In this document: piece after piece, positions 60,081 to 64,000 of the stretch | How positions within the stretch are numbered: the stretch's first letter is position 1 | Layout: each line of letters starts with the position of its first letter | Assembly (NCBI RefSeq): GCF_014396785.1 | Contig: NZ_CP060718.1 | Span: forward strand, 2,190,501-2,254,500 | Origin: Sphingomonas lutea | GTDB taxonomy: Bacteria > Pseudomonadota > Alphaproteobacteria > Sphingomonadales > Sphingomonadaceae | Direction: 5' to 3' | DNA length: 64,000 bases | The notes under the pieces: model-generated | What the model was told of the DNA's origin: nothing | Database searches by the model: none | What the model saw: the letters and a program-made list of their open reading frames with translations, nothing else | Position numbers and translations under genes: made by a program

Positions 60081-60107
60081 ACCTTATTGCTGAGCGCGAG
60101 GGGAGAA

Positions 60108-60137
60108 GGCGGGGCGCTCACGGGCGCCCCGCCTTTT
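60108..60137 (+). terminator. Rho-independent terminator after ctrA
   Basis: GGCGGGGCGC pairs perfectly with GCGCCCCGCC over a 6-base loop and is followed by TTTT. It lies 27 bases after the ctrA stop and four bases before the end of the convergent TIR gene. Confidence 0.9.
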
Positions 60138-60140
60138 GCT

Positions 60141-62012
60141 TTAAGGCTTGGGGAAACTCAGCCGGGCGATGAGTGATGCGAAGCGCGGATCCCCGCGCAA
60201 CGGTTTCAGATGTTCATCGGTGGGAAGAAAACCAAGCCCCGGATCGCGCGCCCTGTAGGACGCCTCAAGCTCGGCCATGGCGCCGTCGCGGTCGCCCATT
60301 TGCGACAGCATTTGCGCATATTGATAATGCGCGCTGTCGCCGGCCTTCTGCCGCATCGCCGCAAGGATCGCGGCAGCTTGCGCGCGGTCGCCGGTCCGCG
60401 CCGCCGCGACCGAGCGGATCACAAACCAATTGGGATGCTCGTGAGGCAGCTGGTCGGCCGCACGGGCCGCATCGGCATACCGGCCTGAAAGAAGCAGTGC
60501 GGCCGCCAGCCCATTGCGGACGTTGGTCGACGTCGGTTCGTCGGCCATCAGCTTTTCGATCACTGCAAGCGCTTCCTGATAAGCACCTCTCCTGACCAAC
60601 AGATAGCCCCGCGACCGCGCCACGCTGGGATCGAGGGGGTCGCGGGCGTTGGCCTGGTTCCAGAGCGCATCCGCCCGACGGCTGTGGCCGATCTGCGCAA
60701 GAAAGTTTGCGACGCTGACCATGTTGCGGGTCGAACAGCCCGGGATGGCGATGGCCCGCTGATATTCGACCCAGCCGCCGGTAAAATCGAGCGCGCTGAT
60801 GAGATTGAACCCGAGCGCGTAATGGCCATCCGAAAGTTCGGGCGCCAGCGCGATCGCCTTGCGCGCCACGGCCGATGCCTTCTCGAACCCGGTCTCGAAC
60901 TCCGCCGCGCTATCCGCGTAATAAGCGACGAGATTGCTTTCGGCGACCGCCTTGCCGGAATAGGCCAGCGCATAATCGGGATCGAGGGCGATTGCCGCGT
61001 CATAAAGCGCGATCCTGGTCCTGTAGCCGTCGATGCTGCCGTCGACATTGGCGTCGGCCTTGAGCAGGAGGTCCTGAGCCGCGGCGTTCTTCGTGCCCCA
61101 GCGGTGAGCGCGGCGCGATCGGCGGCGCCGAGCCGGCTGCGCAATTGCTGGGCCACGGCCTCAGCGATGCTGGTCTGGATGGCGAGCACGTCGCCGGTCG
61201 GCCGGTCGAAGGTTTCCGACCATTTTTCCGTGCCATCCCCGCCGTCGACGAGCTGGGCGCTGACCCGGATCGTCGATGGCGAACGCCGGACGCTTCCAGT
61301 CACGATGCTTCCAACGTCGAGCCGCTGGGCCGCCGTCGTCGCATCATCGTTGCGCAGCACTTCGGACGACGTGCGTCCGATGACCTTGAGGCCATTGATC
61401 CGCGACAGCGCGCTACGCACCTCTTCCGCAAGACCGTCCGAAAAATAAGCCTGCGCCGGATCGCCGCTGAGATTGGCAAAGGGCAGGACGGCGACACTGC
61501 TGGTATTTGCCGCGGTGCCGCGCGTGAAGAACCAGCCGAGCCCGCCCGCAGCCACGAGTGTCGCCCCTGCCCCGCCGGCGATCGCCGCCCGGCGGCTGAT
61601 CCGCGGACCAGCATTGATCCCCGGAGTGTTGACATGGTCCCGGCCGCCAAGCCGCTGACGAATGGCCCTTCCATGAACTGAGCGAAATCGCCTGATGCTC
61701 ACGAAAGCCGAGCGGTGGGCGGACATTGTCGATTGTGATCGGGAGGTAGTGACCGGCCTCCTGCGCCGCGCTTGCTTCGTCACGGACGAAGCGGCCTTCC
61801 GGGCCGACGGTGCGCTTGCTCCAGACGACAATCACCACCTTGGCCGCGTCGAGATGGCTTTCGATCTCCTCCCGCCAGTTGGTGCCGCCGCCGATATGCT
61901 GGTCCCACCAGACGTTGAAGCCTTCCGCCTCGAGCGCTTCGACCAAGGGGACCAGCCGCTTGCGGTCCTCCGCCTTGTAGGAGATGAAGACGTCATTCGA
62001 CGCGTCGGTCAT
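60141..62012 (-). pseudogene. TIR - membrane segment - TolB-like - TPR protein, broken by two frame changes
   Basis: Read across frames this is one protein of about 620 residues. The first part (from ATG 62012) is a TIR domain: NDVFISYKAEDRKRLVPLVE, FNVWWDQHIGGGTNWREEIE, with a candidate catalytic Glu79 in GRFVRDEASAAQ. Near 61666 the frame changes, and a transmembrane segment (AAIAGGAGATLVAAGGLGWF) leads into a TolB-like domain (VAVLPFANLSGDPAQAYFSD, GLAEEVRSALSRINGLKVIG) typical of adenylate-cyclase-like proteins. Near 61097 it changes back, and TPR repeats (ARKAIALAPELSDGHYALGF and others) run to SFPKP. The second change is mended by one extra G in a G run. The first needs one base removed or two added, and the usual TIR-tail residues seem missing there. 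Confidence 0.78.
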
Positions 62013-62254
62013 GGCGCGCGCCCCCCTTGGCGATGCGTAGGCGCACCTTACCCGCCCTGAAACGTGTGACAAGTTTGGCACCGCGCTCGTGTAGCCGTGC
62101 CAACGCGGGACGAGGCTTTGGCACCGCTCTCGACATTCGCTTACACTTAACCGAAATTAACCCTTGAAGACGCCCGAGTCGCGGAAACGACATTTCCGGG
62201 ACCGGTTGATCGTTGCGCGAAGGCCGTGGCCGAGGCGTTTTTCGGGGGAAATGC
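62013..62254. other. Divergent control region of the two TIR genes
   Basis: No gene was seen in this 242-base gap. It contains TTAA-N6-TTAA at 62147-62160, the same spacing as the pair upstream of ctrA, and GGGGGAA at 62244-62250 as ribosome site of the rightward gene. Confidence 0.5.
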
Positions 62255-63214
62255 GTGTCTGGACCTGATATCTTCCTGTCCTATGCACGGTCCGATCGGG
62301 CCGTCGCGCGCACGTTCGCGGAAGCGCTGACCGAAGAAGGATTCAGCGTCTGGTGGGACGCATCGCTGCATTCGGGTGAGACGTTCGACGAGGTCATCGA
62401 GAAGAACCTGCGCGAGGCCAAGGCGGTCGTCGTGCTATGGTCGCCACGCTCGGTCGCGTCACGCTGGGTGCGCGCCGAAGCCACGCAGGCGGACCGCAAG
62501 AACAAGCTGGTCCCGGCGATGATCGAACCGTGCGACCGCCCCGTAATCTTCGAATTGACGCACACCGCCGATTTGATCGACTGGACCGGCGACGTCACCG
62601 ATATCCATTGGCGCACCTTCATGGACGACCTGCGCCGGCTGGTGCACGGGTCAAGCGATTTCGACGTTCCGGCGGCCGCGCGCCCCGCGGCCAAGGGACC
62701 GCGTCCGCAGACACCAGTCGCCGAGCCGATCGCACCTGCACGCCGCCCGCTCCGCCCAGGCAGCGACGACGTCATTTCCGCGGGACGGTCCACGCCGGAG
62801 CCGGCTGCGCCCGCGACGGCGGCGCCGCCGCGCGCCGTGGAGGACGATCAGCCGACCGAGATTCACTGTCTGGAAGTCGAGGAGGGCGAGTTCGCCGGTG
62901 AATTGTATACCGTTGCGGGCACCGGCGCGCAGATCGGCCGGTCTGCGCCCGCCGACATCGTCGTCCCAGACGGAAGCGTTTCGCGGCAGCATTGCGTCTT
63001 GGGCATCGCCAACGACGAACTGCTCGTCAGCGACCTCAATTCGACCAACGGCACGTATGTCGACGGCGAGCGCGTGACGCGCGCGACAGTCGTGCCGGTG
63101 GGATCTTTGCTCCAGGTCGGTCAGGTCTCGATGCGCCACGCTTTGCTGTCGCGCGCGGAGATCCAGTGGCGCAGCAATCCCGAATTCGACGCAAAGGTCG
63201 TCAACGCCCGCTAG
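62255..63214 (+). CDS. TIR-FHA fusion protein
   Basis: This 319-residue cytoplasmic protein combines two signalling domains. The TIR domain (residues 3-115) has PDIFLSYARSDRAVARTFAE, FSVWWDASLHSGETFDEVIE and AVVVLWSPRSVASRWVRAEA, with Glu75 at the place of the NADase glutamate. A Pro/Ala-rich linker (about 138-200) leads to an FHA domain (about 205-300) with the phosphothreonine-binding residues G228-R229-S230, S243-R244-Q-H246 and N262-S-T-N265-G. GTG 62255 has GGGGGAA upstream. It is divergent from the TIR-TolB-TPR gene. Its output (NAD cleavage, or protein assembly only) is unknown. Confidence 0.88.
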   Translation: MSGPDIFLSYARSDRAVARTFAEALTEEGFSVWWDASLHSGETFDEVIEKNLREAKAVVVLWSPRSVASRWVRAEATQADRKNKLVPAMIEPCDRPVIFELTHTADLIDWTGDVTDIHWRTFMDDLRRLVHGSSDFDVPAAARPAAKGPRPQTPVAEPIAPARRPLRPGSDDVISAGRSTPEPAAPATAAPPRAVEDDQPTEIHCLEVEEGEFAGELYTVAGTGAQIGRSAPADIVVPDGSVSRQHCVLGIANDELLVSDLNSTNGTYVDGERVTRATVVPVGSLLQVGQVSMRHALLSRAEIQWRSNPEFDAKVVNAR

Positions 63215-63232
63215 GGGCGCCACCCCATCACT

Positions 63233-64000
63233 TTATTGCTGCTTGGCCAGGAAAGCGATGTAGGCGCGCGTCTGCGTTGCCTGTTTGATCAGCCGGTCGG
63301 CCTCGGCGTTGGTCTTGATGCCTGCCATCGAGGCGCGGAGCGTGGCGAGATTGCTGTCGTAATTTCGGGCGAGCGCCGCATTCTGGCTGTTGCCGGAGCG
63401 GATGACCCGCCGGGCCTGCGACCGGGCATCGTCGACGATTCCATAGAATTGCGACAGCTTGGCTGGTGAAACACCCGTTTCTGCGGCGGCGGTCTTTGCT
63501 GGGGCCGCGGTTGTCGGTGTTTTCTTGATTTCCGTCGCGCTGCTGGCGGCGGCTTGCCGCGCCGCGCGAGCTTGCGCGCGTTCGATGGCTTTCAGCCGAT
63601 CCTCGGCCGCCTTGGCCTTGGCCGCTTCACGGCGAAGGGCGTCGGCGGCGGCAGTGTCCTCGACAGGCGTAGCTTCAGTCGACGTTTCCGCTGTTTCGAC
63701 GGGCGCGGTGTCATTCACGGTGGTGTTGGCGGTCGCATCGGTGACCGTCATCGTCGTTTCGGGCGCATCCAGAGCGGCCGTCTCCGCCGCCGGTTGCGGA
63801 TCGGAACCGCCGCGAAGCATCAATGCGCCGCCTCCAACGACCGCAAGGACAACGGCGGCAATCCCCGCCATCAGTACCGGGCTGCGCGATTTCTCCCCAT
63901 GCTTGGCGGGCGGCGCCGCACCAGCGTCGGCCTTCTTCGCAGGCGCAGTGCTTCGGCTGGTGCCGCGTTCGTCGGCAAGCGCCGCGGCAGTTGCGGCGCC
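63233..64000 (-). CDS. C-terminal part of an Ala-rich single-span membrane protein (runs off the window)
   Basis: The frame is open from the window edge to the stop at 63233. A cytoplasmic stretch (ALADERGTSRSTAPAKKADA and on) is followed by a transmembrane helix (VLMAGIAAVVLAVVGGGALM). Then comes a Thr/Ala/Glu-rich outer region with a coiled-coil-like part (ADALRREAAKAKAAEDRLKA) and a folded end (SPAKLSQFYGIVDDARSQAR, DRLIKQATQTRAYIAFLAKQ). It could be the tail of a membrane-bound Ser/Thr kinase, which would fit the FHA partner 18 bases away in convergent orientation, but no kinase motif lies inside the window. Confidence 0.6.
   Translation of the reverse strand, partial: GAATAAALADERGTSRSTAPAKKADAGAAPPAKHGEKSRSPVLMAGIAAVVLAVVGGGALMLRGGSDPQPAAETAALDAPETTMTVTDATANTTVNDTAPVETAETSTEATPVEDTAAADALRREAAKAKAAEDRLKAIERAQARAARQAAASSATEIKKTPTTAAPAKTAAAETGVSPAKLSQFYGIVDDARSQARRVIRSGNSQNAALARNYDSNLATLRASMAGIKTNAEADRLIKQATQTRAYIAFLAKQQ

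Follow-up and report, generated by a model that had tools for sequence, protein, structure and literature searches.

Does the pair of TIR genes beside ctrA in Sphingomonas lutea belong to a system which is regulated by protein phosphorylation, and which of the neighbouring genes take part in it? The stretch analysed here, called the window, comprises 64,000 nucleotides (G000:C1:2190501-2254500, contig NZ_CP060718.1), and the whole genome is a single contig of 2.42 Mb. An initial annotation, made from the letters of the window alone, had taken two divergent TIR genes next to ctrA, one of them fused to an FHA domain, for a candidate phospho-regulated TIR system. As a whole, this observation was partly confirmed and needs two corrections. 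The TIR-FHA gene forms a module with a serine/threonine (Ser/Thr) kinase gene and a PP2C phosphatase gene, which suggests a TIR enzyme that is switched by protein phosphorylation. The DNA beyond the window edge was read as L009 (window position = L009 position + 58000), and membrane spans are calls made by eye throughout.

The TIR-FHA protein, the kinase and the phosphatase

The TIR-FHA gene is intact, and its best start is the GTG at 62255, which is preceded by a purine-rich stretch. As had been claimed, one protein combines TIR (TIR_2, 83.9 bits; cut-off 28) with FHA (66.2 bits; cut-off 20.7) and possesses the binding residues of the latter; of the 120 best-listed homologs, which include the protein of the window itself, 119 show the site pattern GR, SRxH, N[G/S]T. 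The glutamate which had been noticed at the NADase position of both TIR domains (E75 in TIR-FHA and E79 in the second TIR gene) lies in a column that is invariant in an alignment of six TIR sequences; E75 is also invariant in alignment A3 (68 sequences). Among the best-listed TIR-FHA homologs, 119 of 120 retain the catalytic Glu motif. A profile comparison places E75 opposite a Glu (position 78) of chain 7uwg, in the last column of the local alignment; at that place 7uwg is identical to 8g83, the chain which bears the name AbTIR and whose own local alignment ends one residue before it. The proposed alignment of this glutamate with the active site of TIR NADases was thus borne out, at the edge of an alignment. 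From its numbering, we take position 78 of 7uwg to be E208 of AbTIR. E208 is the catalytic glutamate of that enzyme according to the accessible part of the source (PMC10022894). TIR-FHA also shows the TIR fold in its predicted model, and it may cleave NAD+.

The protein which is cut at position 64000, convergent with TIR-FHA, had been suspected to be the tail of a Ser/Thr kinase. This proved to be correct: beyond the window edge, where kinase motifs and a PP2C gene had been proposed as a check, the frame continues into a kinase of 628 amino acids with intact HRD (residues 162-164) and DFG (182-184), and the next gene encodes a PP2C phosphatase. The residues K48, H162-R163-D164 and D182-F183-G184 are invariant in alignment A1 (11 kinases, own included), as in Hanks-type kinases, and the Pkinase score is 125.8 bits. 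The kinase identity of the cut protein therefore stands, and its single membrane span is a judgement by eye. The phosphatase scored above the Pfam cut-offs and reached 206.6 bits against Stp1 (cut-off 230).

Distribution and co-inheritance

In searches of 71 genomes of the genus (kinase E <= 1e-60; TIR-FHA E <= 1e-35, with weaker TIR matches elsewhere left uncounted), the kinase was found in 22 genomes and was absent at this threshold from 49. A TIR-FHA match was present in 23 genomes, namely the same 22 kinase carriers and G247, which has a TIR-only match. Four of the 22 matches spanned the TIR end only; the FHA part was found by direct reading in G213, G224 and G248, and the contig of G245 ends inside the TIR-FHA gene. 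Kinase and TIR-FHA genes lie on one contig in 20 of the 22 carriers and are convergent in all 20, either directly or with an intervening gene. They are on separate contigs in G251 and G245, and in G251 a kinase tail lies beside TIR-FHA.

In the family, 7 of 199 sampled genomes matched the kinase (E <= 1e-30), and six of these score far above the seventh (G057). PP2C adjoins the kinase in all six high-scoring genomes; TIR-FHA is present in five, and the FHA protein of the sixth (G178) belongs to the SpoIIE cluster described below. The set of TIR-FHA, kinase and PP2C is real, conserved and accessory. Conservation of the gene set in relatives, which the initial annotation had made a test of its proposal, was accordingly found for these three genes (22 of 22 kinase genomes of the genus) and not for the TIR-TolB-TPR partner (2 of 42 related loci).

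A conserved threonine in the kinase linker

Between the kinase domain and the membrane span, the linker (residues 294-415, 122 columns) was analysed in the best 120 of 3185 kinase homologs. It contains the motif ATRF (residues 307-310), of which all 120 homologs share T308 and F310, and 119 share A307. T308 is accompanied by an acidic residue at -2, by mostly R or Q at position 309, by a hydrophobic residue at +2 and mostly by another at +3. In the more divergent alignment A1, T308 is still invariant and T355 nearly so, and a motif of the acidic-x-T-R-F type was found in 18 of 19 kinases read from related loci. This candidate site agrees with what the accessible part of PMC6733907 describes for FHA ligand tails. 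Since homologs share ancestry, conservation of the linker alone is no proof of a phosphosite.

A site of this kind was also sought in the linker of TIR-FHA itself. The pattern acidic-x-T-[RQ]-hydrophobic occurred in none of the 118 homologs with a placeable linker (2 of 120 were not placed), an earlier, different pattern in none of 98 (22 of 120 rows not placed), and the QPTEI stretch of the window protein is not conserved among its closest homologs. Self-docking of the window TIR-FHA, and with it TIFA-like chains, were dropped because the own-linker motif is absent from its family. The FHA proteins of divergent relatives possess T-Q-[F/I] before the FHA domain in 9 of 11 cases from related loci, and in 8 of these 9 the residue at -2 is acidic (by eye).

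Related loci with exchanged partners

The contigs of named relatives were scanned at the best 80 of 309 kinase loci, of which 30 are close and 50 distant. The close loci belong to Sphingomonadales, Caulobacteraceae and a few unplaced organisms and contain PP2C in 28, FHA in 22 and TIR in 14 cases. Eight close loci have FHA without TIR; six of them fall into the FHA-SpoIIE cluster C5, and in L058 and L067 the contig ends just past FHA. At the 50 distant loci (kinases 34-47% identical), no TIR match and one FHA match were obtained. Pfam searches with single cluster representatives gave SpoIIE + FHA, STAS, HATPase_c_2, an ion channel, a TPR-S/cyclase protein and a glutaminase. In a kinase tree of 35 rows, the FHA-SpoIIE kinases stand in more than one place; the forks that would decide this are weak, and the counts come out too high through rows whose type is unknown.

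Genes resembling the RsbU/W/V partner switch lie beside the kinase in L060, L061, L062, L064, L065, L066 and L075, with FHA-SpoIIE in the first six (not in L075), an RsbW-like HATPase in all seven and STAS in five. The SpoIIE-type loci L061, L062, L064, L065 and L066 also have a glutaminase gene of cluster C6 nearby.

A further partner is a SLOG-transmembrane (SLOG-TM) protein, whose N-domain has a SLOG fold in the predicted model. Its close subfamily (identity of at least 55% to a query from one of its members) was found in 8 of the 71 genus genomes, each a carrier of the module and each with the gene adjoining TIR-FHA; G251 has an additional partial match of 45% identity beside TIR-FHA. The SLOG-TM protein of L063 had no Pfam match at E <= 0.01, and its relatives gave only matches below the cut-offs, such as DUF4231. 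The kinase and SLOG-TM genes of L063, L067, L068 and L078 are separated by a small gene of cluster C8, whose L068 member matches Ion_trans_2. Proteins of cluster C9 adjoin TIR-FHA in L055, L056 and L080 (TPR-S and guanylate cyclase in L056), and their middle part appears SLOG-like by eye. A second TIR/SLOG pairing was observed in the genome of the window (L151:5559-10081, G000:C1 about 371.6-376.1 kb), where a SLOG-TM relative of 33% identity is grouped with a TIR-TPR gene and a small gene, and no kinase or FHA gene was recognised by eye among the listed frames.

Proposed mechanism

The simplest reading is that the kinase controls the TIR domain through the FHA domain, so that the three genes would form a phosphorylation-switched TIR module; we give this reading about an even chance. 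The single-pass membrane kinase would sense a stimulus through its distal domain and autophosphorylate T308, on which the FHA domain of TIR-FHA would then dock. Several TIR-FHA copies on clustered kinases would gather their TIR domains and thereby turn on NAD+ cleavage, and the output would be NAD+ loss or a cyclic ADP-ribose signal. PP2C would strip the phosphate and reset the system. At related loci, the same kinase and phosphatase are accompanied by an FHA-SpoIIE phosphatase in place of the TIR protein, or the TIR has a SLOG-TM neighbour, which could read the TIR product. The broader form of this proposal, a sensor kinase/phosphatase pair with interchangeable FHA-fused outputs (TIR, or SpoIIE with RsbW/STAS), a TIR gated by docking of FHA on phosphothreonine and some TIRs feeding a SLOG-TM effector, appears somewhat less probable than an even chance. 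Of the phospho-regulated TIR system in the initial annotation, the kinase/PP2C/TIR-FHA set is upheld; the divergent TIR pair as a unit, a link with ctrA and a defence role were not supported.

Several points weigh against this reading. FHA domains can bind other ligands, docking could keep the TIR domain off instead of on, and the FHA-SpoIIE variant suggests stress signalling. Phosphorylation of T308 is predicted from conservation, and 7 of the 122 linker columns are invariant, the other five being 320, 322, 339, 340 and 348; T337 and T355 are nearly invariant, so that T308 is the best candidate phosphosite, yet not the sole one. The TIR-FHA matches of G227 and G234 hold one stop each, which may mark the gene end or a break. 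The layout varies outside the genus: L043 has TIR-FHA behind PP2C rather than convergent with the kinase, and L042 has PP2C downstream of the kinase. Relatives of SLOG-TM at E <= 1e-20 occur in 50 of the 71 genus genomes, carriers or not; the window locus has no SLOG-TM gene, and the 33%-identical relative lies elsewhere in the genome.

The inserted block and the second TIR gene

The gene order at the locus is ctrA (+), the TIR/TolB/TPR gene (-), TIR-FHA (+), kinase (-), PP2C (+) and bpt (-), the last being a name which we assume for this gene (Table 1). Both TIR genes, the kinase and PP2C all sit between ctrA and bpt in this genome. By comparison, ctrA directly adjoins bpt in all five relatives read (L156-L160; 10 genomes searched), with a short spacer that contains a terminator-like hairpin, and two of these five (G216 and G233) have the kinase module at a different place. 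The G+C content of the block (0.648) is near that of the window (0.652), so that composition gives no mark of foreign origin. ctrA is a mere marker of the insertion site. A connection of the TIR genes to ctrA or to the cell cycle was rejected, because this adjacency is not conserved and because six kinase carriers among the 10 genomes searched do not have ctrA beside the kinase, the nearest being about 45 kb away (G216).

Table 1. Positions of the genes and gene pieces at the locus (window numbering).
Feature	Position	Strand or frame	Remarks
Inserted block, left part	60081..64000	.	Block of ~5.85 kb between ctrA (ends 60080) and bpt (stop end 65930)
TIR/TolB/TPR gene, three frame pieces	60141..62012	-	Within the inserted block, outside the conserved module
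TIR piece	62012-61659	frame -1	
TolB piece	61600-61130	frame -2	
TPR piece	61097-60144	frame -1	
TIR-FHA, 319 amino acids	62255..63214	+	TIR residues 6-112, FHA about residues 200-300, low-confidence linker between
Ser/Thr kinase, C-terminal part	63233..64000	-	Membrane span (by eye) and distal domain; gene runs on to 65119, 628 amino acids
PP2C phosphatase	65212-65925 (outside window)	+	After the kinase gene

For the second TIR gene, read initially as one TIR-TM-TolB-TPR protein, the TIR, TolB and TPR parts were found again; a single open frame was not, as the parts form three pieces in frames -1, -2 and -1. The genome also has relatives of the broken gene with an open frame (L002, L003, L006, L008), which align to it piecewise only. 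The nearby ilvA gene (L009:8860-10112) shows the same kind of frame break, between L009 9240 and 9222, which suggests that the assembly holds indel errors; for the TIR/TolB/TPR gene, assembly indels are therefore as possible as a pseudogene. Its TolB and TPR pieces matched in just 2 of 42 related loci (35 distinct places), once about 5 kb from the kinase and once in a distant kinase locus. The pairing of the two TIR genes is thus probably incidental; the gene was rejected as a partner in the module, and the divergent pair as a functional unit was not supported. The genome G000:C1 contains 12 TIR_2 matches, including L001-L008, and several of these frames align to the TolB and TPR parts, so that the TIR family looks like a lineage expansion here.

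Neighbourhood and comparison with known systems

A defence role of the TIR proteins, to which the initial annotation had pointed, was not supported by the neighbourhood: at most 4 of 112 neighbouring proteins from 14 related loci matched a PADLOC model (E <= 1e-20), and we regard the models behind these matches as generic. The sample covers 112 of 117 listed proteins and 14 of 30 loci. The proteins were chosen with a GC-codon rule, so that some frames may be wrong, and the sample leaves out four SLOG-TM genes, one ion-channel gene, genes overlapping the module and genes below 150 amino acids. A defence-island context was accordingly rejected as support.

The threonine phosphorylation pathway of type VI secretion (PpkA, PppA, Fha1/TagH) likewise has a kinase, a PP2C and an FHA protein as a set; in the window, the output is a TIR instead. 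VipB (PF05943) had no match in G000, on account of which this link was rejected, and among 11 carriers tested only G231 matched. The window FHA protein reached 32.7 bits against the TagH model TIGR03354, below the cut-off of 120.25.

The kinase-kinase-phosphatase (KKP) module of Pf prophages, a reported antiphage defence, also unites Ser/Thr kinase, PP2C and FHA in one accessory set, as far as the accessible part of the source goes (PMC11341870). It differs in having a pair of kinases, with FHA attached to one and a cold-shock domain to the other, whereas the window has one kinase without FHA and carries FHA on the TIR protein; the main text does not mention TIR (PMC11341870). The locus is therefore no member of KKP.

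DgcB of Bdellovibrio (FHA-GGDEF) shares the fusion of FHA to a signal-making enzyme, and its ligand, with a Glu at -2 and with +2 and +3 both hydrophobic, resembles the candidate in the linker of the window kinase (PMC6733907, accessible part). The ligand of DgcB is its own N-terminal tail, and the kinase was not identified in that study (PMC6733907); in the window, the candidate lies in the cognate kinase. A DgcB-like site precedes FHA in divergent relatives of the module. For the window protein, an FHA switch on its own tail, as in DgcB, OdhI and GarA, was rejected in view of the missing own-linker motif.

Thoeris (ThsB TIR with ThsA; PMC7272460, PMC11204291, accessible parts) has a TIR with the NADase glutamate in common with the window, and loci related to the window locus add a SLOG protein. 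The window locus differs in its input, the kinase/FHA pair, and has no ThsA-like gene (NF058526, 44.1 bits; cut-off 220), and the SLOG partner of related loci has membrane helices (by eye) where the SIR2-SLOG protein ThsA has SIR2. TIR, FHA, kinase, SLATT and PP2C are among the parts of the NTP-dependent conflict systems of Kaur et al. 2020 (PMC7159879), and TIR, FHA and kinase domains among those of a 2021 study of bacterial Death domains (PMC8195603). These systems have NTPase/vWA or GTPase cores, and the accessible parts of both papers describe no TIR-FHA protein with a dedicated kinase/PP2C pair. In the literature searched, whose coverage excludes most subscription papers, no published description of the TIR-FHA/kinase/PP2C module was found, nor one of this kinase with an FHA-SpoIIE/RsbW/STAS partner switch.

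Alternative explanations

For the two TIR genes, it is very probable that they met by chance in an accessory insertion and work independently, the TIR-TolB-TPR gene being either in decay or mis-assembled. Its broken frame, the failure to find it beside TIR-FHA elsewhere in a search of 42 loci and the several TIR_2 proteins of the genome with TolB and TPR parts agree with this, even though both TIR genes lie inside the same inserted block. This explanation concerns the pair only, not the TIR-FHA/kinase/PP2C set, and is compatible with any reading of the latter. For that set, the sign of the contact may be reversed: the phosphorylated kinase would hold TIR-FHA inactive at the membrane, and phosphate loss through PP2C or kinase damage would free the TIR, similar to a guard. 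In GarA and OdhI, binding of the phosphopeptide by FHA turns off the protein's own interactions, and the tight co-inheritance suits an antidote-like kinase as well as an activator. Such an inhibitory contact is nevertheless unlikely, as the FHA-SpoIIE variant reads more easily as a kinase-activated output and, in the accessible part of PMC6733907, the authors argue that the FHA-enzyme fusion DgcB is activated by its phosphorylated tail.

Slightly more probable, and still doubtful, is a cassette for envelope stress or general signalling, in which the TIR would serve as a scaffold or produce a harmless signal and would take no part in phage defence or cell death. The FHA-SpoIIE, RsbW-like HATPase and STAS genes beside the same kinase in other species and the neighbourhood poor in PADLOC families fit this explanation; the nearly universal catalytic Glu motif does not, and the patchy presence (22 of 71 genus and 6 of 199 sampled family genomes) at differing locations looks accessory and transferred. 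A Thoeris-like defence, in which a cyclic ADP-ribose isomer made by the TIR would activate the SLOG-TM effector and the kinase would sense infection or stress, is no more probable than the inhibitory contact. The SLOG fold, the adjacency to TIR-FHA in 8 of 22 genus carriers besides the partial gene in G251, the restriction of the close subfamily to carriers and the TIR-TPR/SLOG-TM pair of L151 speak for it. On the other side, a SLOG-TM gene is absent from the window locus and from its close named relatives L052, L053 and L074, distant SLOG-TM relatives are widespread in the genus without the module, and a defence-gene neighbourhood was not found.

Biological meaning

Discussions of bacterial TIR proteins usually pair them with sensors that detect infection directly, with nucleic-acid guides or with associated NTPases. 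If the control of TIR-FHA by the kinase is true, protein phosphorylation would be added as an input to TIR signalling, with a kinase that switches and a phosphatase that resets, and the conserved threonine of the kinase linker offers one residue for testing this idea. Loci at which SpoIIE replaces TIR next to the same kinase would illustrate how a single sensor is wired to different outputs. The module would then stand beside Thoeris as a counterpart under phosphorylation control, and would be a bacterial analogue of TIR signalling that is governed by receptor kinases.

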